DNA of 40,649 nt from positions 1-40,649 of the forward strand of contig WJKH01000058.1 of NCBI GenBank assembly GCA_014729235.1, written 5' to 3'. The stretch comes from Candidatus Dojkabacteria bacterium (lineage in GTDB: Bacteria; Patescibacteriota; Dojkabacteria; SC72; WJKH01). The notes under the pieces were generated by a model, which saw nothing but the letters and a program-made list of their open reading frames with translations, was not told the origin of the DNA and ran no database searches. Numbering within the stretch: the stretch's first letter is position 1; each line of letters starts with the position of its first letter. The translations under genes and the position numbers were made by a program. Shown piece after piece: positions 2,072 through 15,421 of this stretch.

Positions 2072-3130
2072 ATGGCAAAAATTAAATTTGCAGATCAAGA
2101 AGAAACTGTAGTAACACGAGAGGAATTTCCTCTGTCCAAAGCACAGGAAGTGCTGGAAGATGAGACAGTTGCCATTCTTGGTTATGGTGTACAGGGACCG
2201 GCTCAGGCTCTCAATATGAGAGACAATGGAATCAATGTAATCATTGGTCAGCGAAAAGAATCCAAATCTTGGGATAAAGCGATTGAAGATGGCTGGGTTG
2301 AAGGAGAAACTCTTTTCCCGATTGAGGAAGCAGCTGGGAGAGGCACAATCATTTGTTATTTGCTGTCTGATGCGGGTCAGGTTGCTGTTTGGCCAAAAAT
2401 TAAGCCCTACTTAACTAAAGGAAAAGCATTATATTTCTCTCACGGTTTCGGTCTTGTCTACAATGACCAAACAGGTATTGTACCCCCGGAAGACATAGAT
2501 GTAATCCTCGCAGCACCAAAAGGTGCCGGCCGCTCAGTGCGCGAAAATTATCTCAATGGATCAGGAATTAACGCTAGTTTTGCAGTCAATCAGGATGCTA
2601 CAGGCAGAGCTGAAGAAAGAGTCCTTGCTATTGGAATTGCTCTCGGAGCTGGATATTTATTTGAAACTACTTTTGAAAATGAGGTCTGGAGTGATCTAAC
2701 CGGTGAGCGTGGGATTTTGCTCGGAGCACTCGTTGGTGTTATGGAAGCACAGTTCAATACCTTGCGTGACAACGGTCATTCACCTTCAGAAGCATTTAAT
2801 GAGACAGTTGAAGAGCTGACTCAGAGTTTGATTATCTTAATGGGAAAAAATGGTGCTGATTGGATGATTGGAAATTGCAGCACCACAGCTCAGCGAGGTG
2901 CTCTTGATTGGATGGACAAGTTTAGAGATCGTGTTAGACCTTTATTTGACGAACTTTATGAGTCAGTAAAGTCAGGAAAAGAAACTAAACGGACTCTTGA
3001 CGCGAATTCCGATCCTGAATATAGAACTAAGTTGAACAAAGAACTTGAAGAACTAAGTAACCGTGAGATATGGAGAGCTGGAAAAACTGTTCGAGAGCTT
3101 CGTCCTGAAAACTGGCAAGAGGAGAAGTAG
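2072..3130 (+). CDS. ilvC: Ketol-acid reductoisomerase (class I)
   Basis: 352 residues, the normal size for a short class I KARI. It isomerises and reduces 2-acetolactate and 2-aceto-2-hydroxybutyrate with NAD(P)H and Mg2+. The Rossmann motif is GYGVQGPAQALNMRDNG near residue 37, followed by the cofactor loop IIGQRKESKSW. The helical C-terminal domain carries DLTGERGILLGALVG and FNETVEELTQSL, the region holding the metal-binding acidic residues. GYGVQGPAQAL and CSTTAQRGALDWM resemble Bacteroidetes enzymes as I remember them, which hints at lateral origin. It lies 25 bp after the aminotransferase and is the last gene of the + strand ilv group before a strong hairpin. The upstream leader is AT-rich with no ribosome-binding site. 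Confidence 0.97.
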   Translation: MAKIKFADQEETVVTREEFPLSKAQEVLEDETVAILGYGVQGPAQALNMRDNGINVIIGQRKESKSWDKAIEDGWVEGETLFPIEEAAGRGTIICYLLSDAGQVAVWPKIKPYLTKGKALYFSHGFGLVYNDQTGIVPPEDIDVILAAPKGAGRSVRENYLNGSGINASFAVNQDATGRAEERVLAIGIALGAGYLFETTFENEVWSDLTGERGILLGALVGVMEAQFNTLRDNGHSPSEAFNETVEELTQSLIILMGKNGADWMIGNCSTTAQRGALDWMDKFRDRVRPLFDELYESVKSGKETKRTLDANSDPEYRTKLNKELEELSNREIWRAGKTVRELRPENWQEEK

Positions 3131-3145
3131 ATCAGAAAAAATTAG

Positions 3146-3212
3146 GGAAGAGCCAAAAGCCTATCGCTAAGCTGAAAGTGAAATTAGCGATGGATTTGGA
3201 AACGGCTCTTCC
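3146..3212 (+). terminator. Long hairpin after ilvC
   Basis: GGAAGAGCC (3146-3154) pairs perfectly with GGCTCTTCC (3204-3212). An inner arm ATCGCTAA (3163-3170) pairs perfectly with TTAGCGAT (3184-3191), and CCAAA pairs with TTTGG between them, giving one almost continuous stem. There is no T-run after it, so it is not a textbook intrinsic terminator. It may end or stabilise the ilv transcript's 3' end. Confidence 0.55.
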
Positions 3213-3241
3213 ACTTAGAGAGACTTCAAATCTCAGAATTC

Positions 3242-3269
3242 TTGACAAATGCTTAGAATATTATATTAT
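3242..3269 (+). promoter_or_regulatory. Promoter of the Ile attenuator / threonine synthase-fusion unit
   Basis: A consensus -35 TTGACA (3242-3247), a 16-bp spacer and a -10 TATTAT (3264-3269). The predicted transcription start falls at about 3276, on or next to the GTG start (3277) of the leader peptide, so the leader would be read from a leaderless or nearly leaderless RNA. Confidence 0.65.
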
Positions 3270-3276
3270 TACCACC

Positions 3277-3333
3277 GTGCAACAAAAACAAATACTGAAC
3301 AATTCAATTATTATGATTATTGCCTCCACTTAG
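3277..3333 (+). CDS. Isoleucine-rich leader peptide (18 codons)
   Basis: An open frame GTG...TAG encodes (M)QQKQILNNSIIMIIAST. Five of 18 codons are Ile, four of them in the cluster Ile-Ile-Met-Ile-Ile at 3307-3321. The cluster lies just before the first arm of a set of mutually exclusive CTCC/GGGAG/CCTCCC/GGGAGG stems. Ribosome stalling on Ile codons would cover the first arm and free the second to pair with the third. A shorter start at ATG 3313 gives MIIAST, but it puts Ile at codons 2-3 and fits the promoter less well. This frame is too short for routine gene calling. The peptide role is inference from the architecture. Confidence 0.6.
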   Translation: MQQKQILNNSIIMIIAST

Positions 3334-3394
3334 TAGGGAGTTTTTGTGCATTTTTATGAAATGAATAAGACCTCCCAAATGGGAGGCTTTTTTG
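3322..3394 (+). promoter_or_regulatory. Transcription attenuator (Ile-responsive, predicted) with intrinsic terminator
   Basis: Region 1 is CTCC (3324-3327). Region 2 is GGGAG (3336-3340). Region 3 is CCTCCC (3371-3376). Region 4 is GGGAGG (3381-3386), followed by a T-run (3388-3393). Regions 3:4 with an AAAT loop form a canonical terminator, 1:2 form the anti-antiterminator, and 2:3 (GGGAG/CTCCC, 5 bp) form the antiterminator. The leader-peptide stop (3331-3333) sits between regions 1 and 2. The fusion gene starts 65 bp after the T-run. The same hexamers are used in the leu attenuator at 10237-10323. Confidence 0.65.
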
Positions 3395-3458
3395 TATAGC
3401 AGTGATACGATATAAAGATCAGGACTATTTAGAAGTTTAAATTTTTATTAGAAGTTTT

Positions 3459-5279
3459 ATGTACAAGCTCATATCAGCAAAAACAGGAAAACCTGTCGAC
3501 GAGAAAAATAGCGTTACTACGGACCCGGCAACCGGAAGTCCTCTCAAAGTCGTATACGATTATGAAGATATTAAAAAGCGATTAAATCCATACATGATTG
3601 AAACGACACCTATAAGCACGAGAAAATATCTCGATCTTTTCCCGATAAATGACTATGGAAACGTTGTGTCTTTGAAAGAGGGAAATACACCACTTTATGA
3701 AAGTGCTCGAATGGCGAAAGATTTGGGTTTAAATGAGCTTTACTTCAAATATGAGGGAGCAAATCCAACTGGTTCATTCAAAGATCGAGGCTCACTCGTT
3801 GAGGTCACGAAAGCTATTGAGATGGGGGCAAAAAAAATTATACTTGCTTCCACGGGGAATATGGCAGCATCAGTATCTGCTTTTTCTGCAAAGGCAGGAC
3901 TTGAGTGCTATATTTTCATACCGGAAGGCACACCACCAGGAAAATTGGCCCAGTCTCTTTCTTTTGGAGCAAAAGTAATCCAAATTCACGGAGATTACAA
4001 TACTGCTGCGACACTTGCAGAAAAAGTCGCCGAAAAATATGGATTTTTCCTGGCAGGAGATTATGCTTTTAGACATGAAGGCCAGAAAACACAAGGCTAC
4101 GAAATTATTGAGCAGCTATTATTCAAAGTGCCTGATTACGTTTTAGTCCCAACCGGAAATGGAATTAATATTTCCGCAATATGGACGGGTTTTGTTGAAT
4201 ATAAGCAATTGGGTTTTATTGACCAATTACCTAAAATGATAGCAGTTCAAGCTACAAATGTTGCTCCAATTGCAAAGAGGTACAATCAAAAACTCAAGGA
4301 GTTTGAAGTTGTTAAGAATCCTAAAACTGTAGCATCAGCAATTGCAGTAGGGGACCCGCTTTATGGAGAGATGGTACTCGACTTGCTGCGCGACTCAGAT
4401 GGGATAGCCGTCACAGTGTCTGATGAAGAAACACTGGAGGCACAGCACGAATTAGCCGTCAAAGAGTCAATTTTCACTGAGCCGGGAGGTGCAACTGTCG
4501 TTGCAGCACTTAAAAAACTCAAAGAGAGCGGGAAAATTCCGGAAAACAGTAGCTACGTATGTCTTTTAAGTGGCAATGGATTAAAAGACCCAATTTCCCC
4601 ACTTAAAATACTTGCCGATCCACCAACCATTTATCCGAATTTGCTGGAGGTCGATAAAATTTTGTCGTCTGAGATCTTGAATGTTCGTTCCTACGGTGCA
4701 AAGCAAAGGGAAGAAGTCATTTTCACAAAAGCTCCGGTAAATGGCGAACTAAAGAAAGTGTTGAAGAAGAATTTTGATTATGAGGCAGATGAAGAGTACA
4801 TTGAAGAGATTCGAGCTCAGGTTGCCAAATTTATTGCAAAAGGGAAAAGGGTTAACAGAGCCGATTTACAGTACATAATCGAAAATACAGTTCAGACCCT
4901 TATACCTGAGAGTGATAAGGTATTAAAATTACTTGATTTTGAAATAAAAACAGAGTATGGTCAATCACCTCAGGCTTGGGTAAAGGTCTCAGTAAAAGAT
5001 GAGGAGATTGAAGCTGAGTCACTTGGAACCGGACCGGTCGATGCGGCTATAAATGCCCTGCTGAAGGCTTGTAAAAACGGAAGTACAAAAGAAGTTGAGT
5101 TAACGGATTACAATGTGGCAATAAATACAAAAGGTACGGACGCTGCGGTAGACGTTAATATGACCCTTGAATGCAAAAAGCACGGGGAAAAGGTCGTTGG
5201 AAAAGGAACTTCCCCGGATATTATTCAGGCTTCAATAGACGCATTTTTGGCAGGATACAATGCGCTTCACAAGGACTAG
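3459..5279 (+). CDS. thrC: Threonine synthase-like PLP enzyme fused to a LeuA-type linker and regulatory domain
   Basis: 606 residues, against about 350-420 for archaeal-type ThrC. Residues 1 to ~410 are a fold-type II PLP enzyme: EGNTPLY near 74-80, PLP lysine K108 in NPTGSFKDRG, STGNMAAS, the glycine-rich VPTGNG loop, and LLSGNGLKD. Residues ~430-606 resemble the end of 2-isopropylmalate synthase: a linker-like helix pair (FIAKGKRVNRADLQYIIE) and then the PF08502-type allosteric domain (SLGTGPVDAAINALLKA, INTKGTDAAVDV, GKGTSPDIIQASIDAF). That domain normally binds Leu or Ile for feedback inhibition. The gene follows an Ile-codon attenuator and precedes ridA, which detoxifies the enamine/imine intermediates released by threonine dehydratase. 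I therefore infer an Ile-pathway role, either threonine synthase or a threonine deaminase-like lyase, under branched-chain feedback. The reaction itself is not settled by sequence. Confidence 0.85.
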   Translation: MYKLISAKTGKPVDEKNSVTTDPATGSPLKVVYDYEDIKKRLNPYMIETTPISTRKYLDLFPINDYGNVVSLKEGNTPLYESARMAKDLGLNELYFKYEGANPTGSFKDRGSLVEVTKAIEMGAKKIILASTGNMAASVSAFSAKAGLECYIFIPEGTPPGKLAQSLSFGAKVIQIHGDYNTAATLAEKVAEKYGFFLAGDYAFRHEGQKTQGYEIIEQLLFKVPDYVLVPTGNGINISAIWTGFVEYKQLGFIDQLPKMIAVQATNVAPIAKRYNQKLKEFEVVKNPKTVASAIAVGDPLYGEMVLDLLRDSDGIAVTVSDEETLEAQHELAVKESIFTEPGGATVVAALKKLKESGKIPENSSYVCLLSGNGLKDPISPLKILADPPTIYPNLLEVDKILSSEILNVRSYGAKQREEVIFTKAPVNGELKKVLKKNFDYEADEEYIEEIRAQVAKFIAKGKRVNRADLQYIIENTVQTLIPESDKVLKLLDFEIKTEYGQSPQAWVKVSVKDEEIEAESLGTGPVDAAINALLKACKNGSTKEVELTDYNVAINTKGTDAAVDVNMTLECKKHGEKVVGKGTSPDIIQASIDAFLAGYNALHKD

Positions 5280-5381
5280 TCGGGACTGAATTCGGTTAAT
5301 GAGCAAGTGAGACTAAATAAACGGGTAGTAAATCCGTTTCTTGTCTGCGACGCTCGGAAATAAATTAAAATTATGATTCTT

Positions 5382-5750
5382 ATGAAAACTGTATTCCCAA
5401 AAGGAACCAAAGTGGTTGGGCCGTATTCTCCAGCGACAATCAGTGGGAATCTTTTATTTGTATCAGGTCAAATAGGCATGGACAAAAACATGGATCTTAT
5501 TGATAATGATGTTACTAAACAGGCTCAACAAGCGTTAAAAAATCTGAAAGAGATTTTGGAAGCAGGAGGAAGCGCTGTTAATAAAGTTCTCAAGTGCACA
5601 ATATACCTAATAGATATTAACGACTATTCTGAAGTTAACACCGTCTACGCTGAATTCTTTGGCGATCATGCTCCTGCTCGCGCAGCGGTTGAAGTTGCAA
5701 ATCTCCCTAAAAAAGCAAAGATTGAAGTTGAGTGTATTGCAGAAATTTAG
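5382..5750 (+). CDS. ridA: RidA family enamine/imine deaminase
   Basis: 122 residues from the second ATG (MKTVFPKG); a start at 5373 would add three residues. It is a typical full-length YjgF/YER057c/UK114 protein: VVGPYSPA near the N-terminus, LLFVSGQIGMD, KVLKCTIYLIDINDYSEVN, the catalytic arginine in PARAAVEVANLPK, and the C-terminal KIEVECIAEI. RidA hydrolyses 2-aminoacrylate and 2-aminocrotonate, made by PLP-dependent dehydratases such as IlvA, to ammonia and the 2-oxo acid. It lies about 100 bp after the threonine synthase-like fusion gene on the same strand. This supports a nearby enzyme that releases such intermediates. Confidence 0.95.
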   Translation: MKTVFPKGTKVVGPYSPATISGNLLFVSGQIGMDKNMDLIDNDVTKQAQQALKNLKEILEAGGSAVNKVLKCTIYLIDINDYSEVNTVYAEFFGDHAPARAAVEVANLPKKAKIEVECIAEI

Positions 5751-5864: not shown

Positions 5865-6929
5865 CTAAACCCTCTCCACAACCAAATCACCCATCGCATC
5901 AGTCCCAACCACCAACTCCTCAGGAGTAGCCGCATCCTTAATATCCGGACCACGATAACCATCCTTCAAAACCTGAGCCACAGCATTATCGATAGCATCA
6001 GCCTCATCCTTCATGCCAAAACTCAGAGTCAGCATCATTTGAGCACTTAGAATTGCAGCCAAAGGATTTGCAATGCCCTGACCGGCGATATCCGGGGCTG
6101 ATCCGTGAATTGGCTCATATAAAGCAATTTCATTGCCCATACTCGCAGACGCCAGCATTCCCATGCTGCCGGCTATTTGAGAAGCTTCATCAGTCAGAAT
6201 ATCTCCAAACATATTTCCAGTAACAACAACATCAAACTGAGTAGGATCCTTGATCAATTGCATTGCTGCATTATCAACGTACATATGGTTGAGCTCGACC
6301 TCCGGGTATTCCTCTGCCACTTTAGTGACAGTCTCGCGCCATAATCTTGAGCAGTCCAGCACATTAGCCTTATCAACTGATGTAACTTTCTTGCGACGAA
6401 GCATAGCTGCCTCAAAAGCTTTCCTGGCGATTCTTTCAACCTCAGACACTGAGTATTCCATCGTATCGTGGGCTTTATTGTCATCTCGAGCCCTCTCGCC
6501 AAAATAAATCCCCCCAACTAATTCACGGAAAAAGACTATATCAGAGCCACTGAGCACTTCAGGCTTAAGTGAAGACGCCCCAAGCAACTCATCATAAAGC
6601 TTGATAGGGCGGACGTTTGCAAAAAGCTCAAATGTTTTGCGGATTTTTAGTAGACCCTGCTCAGGTCGAACCTTAAGAGTAGGGTCATTATCATATTTTG
6701 GATCACCGACAGCTCCAAACAGAATAGCATCGAACTTGCGACCTTTTTCAATTGTTTCTTCAGGAAGTGGCTCACCCGTAGCCTCGATCGCACAATGCCC
6801 CATGAGTGCATTATCAAATTCAAACTCATGTCCGAATTTCTCGGCCACTTTTTTAAGGACTTTTACGGCTTGTGGCACTACTTCTTTTCCTATGCCGTCT
6901 CCTTCAATTACTAATATTTTTTTCTTCAC
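5865..6929 (-). CDS. leuB: 3-isopropylmalate dehydrogenase
   Basis: 354 residues, normal length. It oxidatively decarboxylates 3-isopropylmalate to 2-oxoisocaproate with NAD+ and a divalent metal. Signatures: N-terminal VIEGDGIGKEVVPQ, the substrate arginines around VRPEQGLLKIRK and NVRPIK, RELVGGIYFGE, the metal-binding VVTGNMFGDILTDEASQIAGSMG, and the NAD-binding GSAPDIAGQGIANP. The start is GTG (plus-strand CAC at 6927-6929). It is the last gene of leuACDB, 43 bp after leuD. It converges on ridA with about 115 bp between them and no clear terminator. Confidence 0.97.
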   Translation of the reverse strand: MKKKILVIEGDGIGKEVVPQAVKVLKKVAEKFGHEFEFDNALMGHCAIEATGEPLPEETIEKGRKFDAILFGAVGDPKYDNDPTLKVRPEQGLLKIRKTFELFANVRPIKLYDELLGASSLKPEVLSGSDIVFFRELVGGIYFGERARDDNKAHDTMEYSVSEVERIARKAFEAAMLRRKKVTSVDKANVLDCSRLWRETVTKVAEEYPEVELNHMYVDNAAMQLIKDPTQFDVVVTGNMFGDILTDEASQIAGSMGMLASASMGNEIALYEPIHGSAPDIAGQGIANPLAAILSAQMMLTLSFGMKDEADAIDNAVAQVLKDGYRGPDIKDAATPEELVVGTDAMGDLVVERV

Positions 6930-9007: not shown

Positions 9008-10174
9008 TTATTTCTTGCTAAACTTATTCATAATAACAGCTAAGTCGGCATCGTCAACTTCTTTTTTACTGTCTGCTACTTTCAAGAATTCATTATATAT
9101 CGGGTATATATCATTTTTGTCATTTACAACATCAAATCCCAGGTTAGTCAAACGATGAATCAATGCAGCACGTCCGGAACGAGCGGTCAATACGATCTGC
9201 GAAGAATCCACGCCAACTTCTTTAGGATCTATAATTTCGTAATTCTGGCGACTCTTTAAGACCCCATCTTGATGAATTCCCGATGAATGAGCGAAAGCAT
9301 TGGCTCCAACTATCGCTTTGTTTGGCTGCACAGGAATGCCCATAGTTTCAGCAACCAAACGACTTGTGCGGTTAATTAATTTTGTATTGATATCAATGTC
9401 CATATCGATATTTCTCCGGGTTTTAAGAGCCATCACAACCTCTTCCAGAGATGTATTTCCAGCCCGCTCCCCAATCCCGTTCATGGTAACCTCAACCTGT
9501 CTTGCACCATTCTCAACTCCCGCTAATGTATTTGCAGTTGCCAAACCTAAATCATTGTGGCAATGAGTACTTATCACGACATTTTCAATGCCCTTTACAT
9601 TATCTTTTAAATAAGCAATCTTGGCGCCAAACTCGTCAGGGAAGCAGTATCCTGTAGTATCAGGAATGTTTACAACCGTAGCGCCGACCTTAATCACCGC
9701 CTCGATCATTTTTGCTAGAAATTCATTGTCAGCACGTCCGGCATCTTCCGCATAAAACTCGACATCATCTACAAAAGTTTTCGCATACTTGACTGCATCA
9801 ACAGCCTTTTCCAATACTTCTTCCCGCGTAGATTTAAATTTGTGCTTGATATGCACATCAGAAGATCCAATTCCAGTATGAATCCTTGGATGTTTGGCAG
9901 GCTTTATGGCTTCTGCAGCTACTTCTATATCTTTTTTCACTGCTCGTGTCAGCCCACAGACAACACAATTCTTTATCTCCTTCGCAACTTGCTGAACAGA
10001 TTCAAAGTCCCCGGGACTGGAGATTGGAAATCCCGCTTCAATAATGTCAACCCCAAGAGCTTCAAGCTGTTTAGCCAGCTTAATCTTTTCATTTGTATTG
10101 AGTTTGGCTCCGGGAACTTGTTCACCATCTCTCAAAGTTGTATCAAAAACATAGAGCTTATTTTGATCCCACAT
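9008..10174 (-). CDS. leuA: 2-isopropylmalate synthase lacking the C-terminal regulatory domain
   Basis: 388 residues, against about 500-520 for feedback-regulated LeuA. It condenses acetyl-CoA with 2-oxoisovalerate, the committed step to leucine. The TIM-barrel motifs are intact: [14 protein letters not shown] near the N-terminus, the metal ligands in [18 protein letters not shown], and [19 protein letters not shown]. The linker with [12 protein letters not shown] and [14 protein letters not shown] is also present. The protein ends right after the linker helix ([16 protein letters not shown]), exactly where the PF08502 allosteric domain normally begins. No frameshift or leftover coding is seen before leuC. 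A domain of that type is instead found fused to the threonine synthase-like protein at 3459-5279. Without it this LeuA should be insensitive to Leu at the protein level, leaving control to the attenuator. Confidence 0.96.
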
Positions 10175-10236: not shown

Positions 10237-10323
10237 AAAAAATCCTCCCTTTCGGGAGGTCTCAATCTATTATAAAATAACTACAGAAACGTCCTCCCGC
10301 TAGGTTTTGGGATTAAGGAGGAG
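10237..10323 (-). promoter_or_regulatory. Leucine attenuator with intrinsic terminator upstream of leuA
   Basis: On the minus strand, region 1 is CTCCTCC inside the Leu codons (about 10323-10317). Region 2 is GGGAGG (10298-10293). Region 3 is CCTCCC (10259-10254). Region 4 is GGGAGG (10249-10244), followed by a run of Ts (10243-10237). Regions 3:4 with a GAAA loop form a textbook terminator. 2:3 is a perfect 6-bp antiterminator, and 1:2 can sequester region 2. A ribosome stalled on the Leu codons would mask region 1 and permit 2:3, allowing read-through into leuA at 10174. Confidence 0.85.
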
Positions 10324-10353
10324 TCCTGTGTTGTTACTTGTTGTCTTCTTCAT
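10300..10353 (-). CDS. leuL: leu operon leader peptide (17 aa, three consecutive Leu)
   Basis: ATG at 10353 to TAG at 10300 encodes MKKTTSNNTGLLLNPKT. Its three consecutive leucine codons (CTC CTC CTT, 10323-10315) overlap the first arm of the attenuator. It lies directly downstream of a strong promoter, with its ATG about 10 nt after the -10 box. The position, Leu run, stop codon just before region 2, and downstream terminator together match the classical leader-peptide attenuation design known for amino-acid operons. The product itself is presumably not functional. Confidence 0.85.
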   Translation of the reverse strand: MKKTTSNNTGLLLNPKT

Positions 10354-14998: not shown

Positions 14999-15421
14999 AT
15001 GCTGAAAAAAGTATGCGTTCACGCCCTTAACAAGATTAAGAAGCTGGAGAGACGAATTAAGTCAATTGACGAGGATATCGAGTATTTGAAAGATGAAAAT
15101 CTAAGCCTAACTCAAATTACCGAACTTGAGAATTATCGGGATCAGTTGAGTGAAGAGATGGGGCAGCTGCAGAGGATTTATGACAGCTACTGCAAACAGA
15201 AAACCTCAAAACAGTATGAGTTGGTATTCAGAGGAAAAAAAGTTGAAGTAGCACTGGTTCCTGAATTATTAGCCGATCCGCTTAATAATTTTATCTCCAA
15301 AGTCTCTCCACTCGGTCAAAAACTTGAGGATGTAAATGAAGGTGATGTTTTAACGGTACAAACAAGCAGAGACAGGATAAGGTACAAAGTAAGCAAAATT
15401 ACAACTTATCTATCAAACTGA
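14999..15421 (+). CDS. GreA/GreB-like protein with short coiled coil
   Basis: 140 residues. The C-terminal ~75 residues match the FKBP-like domain of Gre factors: SPLGQKLEDVNEGDVLTVQTSRDRIRYKVSKI corresponds to the family's 'SPLGxALlGkkvGDeV' region. The N-terminus is a lysine/glutamate-rich helical hairpin of only about 65 residues, with the turn near DENLSLTQ. Gre factors place two acidic residues at the coiled-coil tip to trigger RNA cleavage in backtracked RNA polymerase. Acidic residues are near the turn here, but I cannot align them with certainty. It may be a Rnk/GreA-like RNAP-binding protein rather than a cleavage factor. The last 16 bp overlap the convergent HPt gene. Confidence 0.65.
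   Translation: MLKKVCVHALNKIKKLERRIKSIDEDIEYLKDENLSLTQITELENYRDQLSEEMGQLQRIYDSYCKQKTSKQYELVFRGKKVEVALVPELLADPLNNFISKVSPLGQKLEDVNEGDVLTVQTSRDRIRYKVSKITTYLSN

Follow-up and report, generated by a model that had tools for sequence, protein, structure and literature searches.

A predicted isoleucine-responsive transcription attenuator upstream of a threonine-synthase-like fusion gene in Candidatus Dojkabacteria

In this work, we describe a putative control element in a 40,649-nucleotide contig of a Candidatus Dojkabacteria bacterium (assembly GCA_014729235.1, WJKH01000058.1; hereafter the window), which is part of a 1.16 Mb draft genome. The element lies in the intergenic span 3131–3458, between ilvC and the gene of a 606-aa fusion protein, and is most likely (probability of about 0.9) a ribosome-mediated transcription attenuator that responds to isoleucine. 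We determined by computation which elements are present, how they are conserved, and how the predicted fold depends on ribosome position. The same switch stands before the same gene or operon in 14 other small-genome bacteria, and it is therefore very likely real. The mechanism as such is already known; the lineage, the enzyme fusion, and the leaderless design are new. The element offers a concrete, testable case of amino-acid-responsive control in a small-genome phylum.

The features of the window leader are listed in Table 1. The -35 and -10 elements together score 11/12 against the consensus with a 16-nt spacer, and the GTG start codon at 3277 is located 7 nt downstream of the -10 end. Codons 11–15 of the frame encode Ile-Ile-Met-Ile-Ile, with four ATT codons around a single ATG as the putative regulatory codons, and the frame ends with TAG (3331–3333). 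An intrinsic terminator is present between this frame and the first gene, the fusion, with a C between the hairpin and the T6 tract. The promoter, the GTG frame, the isoleucine cluster, the arms, and the T6 tract were all found where the preliminary description had placed them. None of 5000 dinucleotide shuffles of 3131–3458 reproduced the combination of leader and terminator, defined as a frame with at least four Ile in five codons located 12–50 nt before a G+C-rich terminator; clusters of the other tested amino acids with a terminator likewise occurred in none of the 5000 shuffles of this span. The fold of the whole leader was more stable than those of shuffled sequences (z = -3.1). Directly after ilvC, the window also has a long inverted repeat (GGAAGAGCC...GGCTCTTCC, 3149–3211) without a T tract.

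Table 1 Features of the window, leaders upstream of the fusion gene or its ilv operon in relatives, and T-box-like leaders
Feature	Genome or contig	Position	Strand	Remark
-35 element TTGACA	window	3242–3247	+	promoter scan
-10 element TATTAT	window	3264–3269	+	promoter scan
Leader peptide frame VQQKQILNNSIIMIIAST, then stop	window	3277–3333	+	GTG start, 18 codons; sequence, homologous leaders, shuffles
Arm 1, CCTCC	window	3323–3327	+	within last codons of frame; sequence
Arm 2, GGGAG	window	3336–3340	+	just 3' of leader stop codon; sequence, folding
Predicted antiterminator hairpin (arms 2 and 3, extended stem)	window	3336–3376	+	about -16 kcal/mol; folding
Arm 3, CCTCCC	window	3371–3376	+	sequence
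Predicted terminator hairpin CCTCCC-AAAT-GGGAGG (arms 3 and 4)	window	3371–3386	+	folding, terminator scan
Arm 4, GGGAGG	window	3381–3386	+	sequence
T6 tract of intrinsic terminator	window	3388–3393	+	sequence
Fusion gene, PALP (threonine-synthase-like PLP) and LeuA_dimer allosteric domain	window	3459–5279	+	606 aa; Pfam, NCBIfam
RidA-family enamine/imine deaminase gene	window	5373–5750	+	next gene, recurrent fusion neighbour; domain annotation, neighbourhoods
Predicted leu terminator hairpin CCTCCC-GAAA-GGGAGG	window	10244–10259	-	sequence, folding
Leucine leader peptide MKKTTSNNTGLLLNPKT, then stop, of leuACDB operon	window	10300–10353	-	sequence, folding
Leader MKKLALSLLIIVIIIL	G159, G146			
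Leader VNFIRNSIIISVIIIAA	G179			GTG start
Leader MKRLILIISVLIIIL	G461			
Leader MHKFATIISIVVIIIF	G462			
Leader MNKSFSIISFVIIDL	G463			
Leader MKYFAQAIIAIIIIL	G468			
Leader MKNVSIIGIIINTRY	G482			
Leader MHMQRVIVIGLIIIPLNQER	G502			
Leader MKTSPKYIIGIIIIPR	G483			
Leader MIFPRSELVLVEIIILFS	G484			
Leader MKNTIIIIDL	G650			
Leader MNKNIIIISP	G651			
Leader MNVNTSALRTAIIIPASPAA	G664			
T-box-like leader	L109	~2480–2740	-	
T-box-like leader	L110	~6000–6350	-	
T-box-like leader	L111	8900–9105	+	
T-box-like leader	L115	9300–9560	+	

For the folding analysis, the transcript was masked to 15 nt past the first base of the P-site codon and ended at the terminator loop, and the probability that arm 3 pairs upstream was used as the readout of the switch at each ribosome position. 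The hairpin logic of the preliminary description stands in that the antiterminator and terminator are predicted to be mutually exclusive: arm 2 pairs with arm 3 at P = 0.83 with the ribosome on any Ile codon, and the antiterminator probability is 0.66 at GCC, 0.11 at TCC, and 0.02 at the stop codon. The arm 1:arm 2 hairpin, however, is predicted to be only transient (P = 0.78 with the transcript end at arm 2 and 0.15 ten bases further on). The ribosome-dependent switch of the window was equalled by 3 of 200 spacer shuffles. Over 13 folded leaders, consisting of 11 Ile leaders and two leu-type leaders (the window leu leader and that of G497), the mean on-off difference was 0.635, compared with 0.062 for shuffled spacers (maximum, 0.239). 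Three further leaders (G650, G651, and G664) gave the same ribosome-position behaviour; the switch of G179 is weak, with 38 of 200 shuffles doing as well. Arm 2 preferred the arm 3 of its own leader, which ranked first in eight leaders and within ranks 1–4 in 16 of 16. In most leaders, including that of the window, the ribosome-free fold already favours the antiterminator, which suggests that the arm 1:arm 2 protector is weak and that untranslated transcripts should read through. A weak protector predicts that blocking translation of the leader raises expression and does not lower it.

For the operation of the element, we infer a transcript start, ribosome stalling, termination, and a response to isoleucine as follows. 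Transcription would start at or beside the GTG, so that a ribosome could load straight onto the leaderless 5' end and trail RNA polymerase. A shortage of charged Ile-tRNA would stall the ribosome at ATT ATT ATG ATT ATT, leaving arm 2 free to pair with arm 3 before arm 4 exists, and the polymerase would then go on to transcribe the fusion gene and ridA. With ample Ile-tRNA, the ribosome would reach the TAG codon and cover arm 2, arms 3 and 4 would pair, and transcription would stop at the T6 tract.

Leaders of this type were found in 15 genomes as 14 distinct sequences with the window counted, that is, as 13 further distinct leaders in 14 other genomes. The fusion homologues of these relatives share 42–51% identity with the window fusion and come from elsewhere in the phylum. 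No homologue was found in the window organism's own family or class, and a search in the order of G179 returned only G179 itself. The related leaders are not fully independent, as a single order contributes many of them. Their frames consist of 10–20 codons with 3–7 Ile codons, and downstream of every leader lies a terminator, its first arm starting 20–41 nt past the stop codon. The arm sequences vary (GGGAG/CTCCC, GAGAGA/TCTCTC, GGTGG/CCACC, and GGAGAGGTAG/CTACCTCTCC, among others) with a constant topology. Of the two features that the preliminary description had singled out for comparison among relatives, the Ile-rich frame is kept in the 14 other genomes, whereas the GTG start recurs in one relative only (G179), the rest having ATG. 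Among 380 gene starts at 25 loci, a cluster of at least four Ile codons with a terminator was confined to the heads of fusion or ilvE operons. Many homologues with usable upstream sequence carry no Ile leader: none was seen where the fusion follows ridA and is not part of an ilv operon (G438, G471, G443, and G445), at several fusions embedded in other operons, or in G458, in which an S-layer-domain gene is inserted between. In G103 and G455, the upstream region is truncated by the end of the contig.

The -35 element is TTGACN or TTTACA in 17 of 17 leaders, and no Shine-Dalgarno-like sequence occurs within 20 nt upstream of the start codon in any of the 17. The -10 element ends 6–10 nt upstream of the start codon in 12 leaders and 21–30 nt upstream in five (G159, G146, G179, G468, and G482). 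With the shorter spacing, transcription is expected to start on the start codon or only a few bases away from it. The window leader mRNA should therefore be leaderless, as judged from consensus matches, and leaderless mRNAs are the best explanation for most of the Ile attenuators, their transcript starts being deduced from the same kind of sequence evidence. As most of them are predicted to be leaderless, these leaders would provide natural material for examining how transcription and translation are coupled when no Shine-Dalgarno sequence is present.

Operon context and the enzymes encoded, or missing, in these genomes support the prediction of the preliminary description that the fusion enzyme serves isoleucine. 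The relatives' fusion genes sit in ilvE/B/N/D/C/ridA operons, arranged as [leader]-fusion-ilvE-ilvD-ilvC in G159 and as [leader]-ilvE-ilvB-ilvN-fusion-ridA in G483, and the window carries ilvD, ilvC, ridA, and leu genes. The fusion passes the cut-offs of the ThrC equivalogs NF006050 (312 bits; cut-off, 303) and TIGR00260 (244; cut-off, 167), and scores below that of canonical IlvA (TIGR01127; 104.8 bits; cut-off, 378.75). None of 14 genomes has a canonical IlvA above the cut-off, and the fusion is the top IlvA-like match in each. Four solved threonine synthases have the motifs STGNT, NSVNPxR, and GNAGN in common; all 22 fusion homologues have STGNM or SSGNM and GDY/GDF-xFR instead, and the third motif also deviates. 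Homoserine dehydrogenase was detected in G159, G146, G461, G502, and 14 of 14 control genomes, and was not found in the window genome, G179, G462, G463, G468, G482, G483, G484, G103, or G358. Because threonine synthase needs a substrate from the homoserine pathway, the missing dehydrogenase counts against a ThrC role. Since homoserine dehydrogenase was not found in most of the leader-bearing genomes tested, including that of the window, and none tested has a canonical IlvA, the fusion is probably a threonine dehydratase that provides 2-oxobutanoate for isoleucine, with a threonine-synthase fold and a LeuA-type effector domain. In the simplest reading, RidA would clear the enamine product of the dehydratase, and LeuA_dimer would be the effector site. 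No literature on a fusion of a threonine-synthase-like PLP domain with LeuA_dimer was found in open full text. The codon identity of the leader assigns isoleucine supply to a fused enzyme that profile libraries call threonine synthase.

A hairpin with a T tract behind ilvC could also simply end the ilvC transcript as an intrinsic terminator, with the small frame being a chance ORF, since ilvC is on the same strand, ends at 3130, and belongs to a draft genome. This is very improbable given that a separate promoter lies between ilvC and the hairpin, that the shuffles did not generate the combination, and that frames with an Ile run are kept before the same gene even with an unrelated upstream gene, with the stop-to-arm 3 spacing staying in the same range in all leaders. 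A T-box or another tRNA- or metabolite-binding riboswitch with an incidental frame would fit with four relatives (G647, G741, G739, and G632), in which a T-box-like leader takes the place of the Ile leader before the fusion. These leaders have an AGGTGGTAYC core and a common GGAAGAAA...TAGAACC loop; the candidate specifier is ATT (Ile) in two, and ACT and AGT in the other two. The leader in L109 matched Rfam RF00230 with 30.3 bits (E = 4.9e-5), under the gathering score of 93, and the other three had no T-box match; the four may represent a compact T-box variant. For the window itself, a riboswitch is extremely improbable: an Rfam scan of the window gave no match, the T-box core AGGTGGTACC is absent from 3277–3458, the leader is only ~120 nt long, and what is conserved across the leader group is the Ile frame. 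An attenuator read by a translating ribosome remains our preferred explanation. The odds are roughly even that bacteria of this phylum sense tRNA charging to control isoleucine synthesis and do so interchangeably, with either leaderless Ile attenuators or compact T-box-like elements upstream of a ThrC-derived, LeuA-domain-regulated threonine dehydratase that has replaced IlvA.

The amino acid that is sensed could be broader than isoleucine alone, with a joint response to Ile, Val, and Leu as in ilvGMEDA. Val or Leu codons occur in or beside the Ile run in G159 (LLIIVIIIL), G461, G462, and G484, and the operons of the relatives serve the synthesis of Val as well as Ile, so that a broader branched-chain response is possible there. 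Against this, the window cluster consists of four ATT codons and one ATG with no Val or Leu inside, and the runs in G483, G650, and G651 are purely Ile. We regard joint sensing as rather unlikely and favour a response to isoleucine.

A 2020 study by Canestrari, cited in PMC13236596, reportedly described polycysteine leaderless short ORF attenuators in mycobacteria, in which the upstream ORF has runs of one codon; that system is said to serve cysteine-responsive operonic regulation, unlike the Ile leader here. Ribosome-mediated attenuation has been described for trp, his, leu, thr, ilvGMEDA, and ilvBN (PMC1183508). The ilvGMEDA, ilvBN, leu, and thr attenuators of E. coli and Salmonella resemble the present element in having a cognate-codon leader, mutually exclusive antiterminator and terminator, and a biosynthetic operon downstream (PMC1183508), whereas the element here is predicted to be leaderless, has almost only Ile codons and a weak protector/pause hairpin, and comes from a reduced-genome phylum. 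The M. tuberculosis ilvB1 attenuator also has an uORF rich in branched-chain amino acids, with a stalled ribosome that frees the antiterminator and a ribosome at the stop codon that masks it, but differs in its 166-nt leader, its LVVI codons, and its control of ilvB1NC (PMC13236596). The leaderless attenuator peptide trpL of Sinorhizobium meliloti, whose transcript begins at the leader ATG, is similar in design, but is tryptophan-specific and belongs to an alphaproteobacterium (PMC7298713). Our literature search covered open full text and found no description of an attenuator in Patescibacteria/CPR, nor anything specific to this group on T-box or leaderless leaders. Genomes are small throughout the phylum, and ribosomal protein L30 is missing in 13 of the 14 phylum genomes tested (G103 has it), compared with its presence in 13 of 14 controls; both features fit with the Candidate Phyla Radiation (Patescibacteria).

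The same island of the window contains a second predicted attenuator, with Leu codons (CTC CTC CTT) before leuACDB as there are Ile codons before the fusion. As noted in the preliminary description, both leaders use the same hexamers, CCTCCC and GGGAGG, in their terminators. CCTCCC-N3..8-GGGAGG hairpins occur only twice in the window, in the Ile and leu leaders (0.01 expected). Relatives have other arm sequences, which makes the sharing of hexamers a local trait of this island. A leuA leader in relatives is convincing only in G497 (Leu and Ile codons) and possible in G502. In G497, a leaderless Leu/Ile leader (MKYLSSNIQALILLILNTRSGLFVS; L064, 1267–1344, +) is predicted to form part of an attenuator upstream of a LeuA/citramalate-synthase-like gene, and in G502, a possible Leu/Ile-rich leader (MIISSLILVAILIMLKVLEL...; L054, 489–588, +) with the terminator CCCGCT...AGCGGG is upstream of leuA. 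G664 has two putative attenuators on L116, one with Ile codons before the fusion (15205–15252, -) and one with Leu/Val codons (VRSLSIVLGLVLVLR; 9466–9528, +) before ilvBNE. The window LeuA (9008–10174, -) is a 388-aa protein without the LeuA_dimer domain, and the fusion gene has one; most relatives' LeuA proteins are ~510 aa, long enough for LeuA_dimer.
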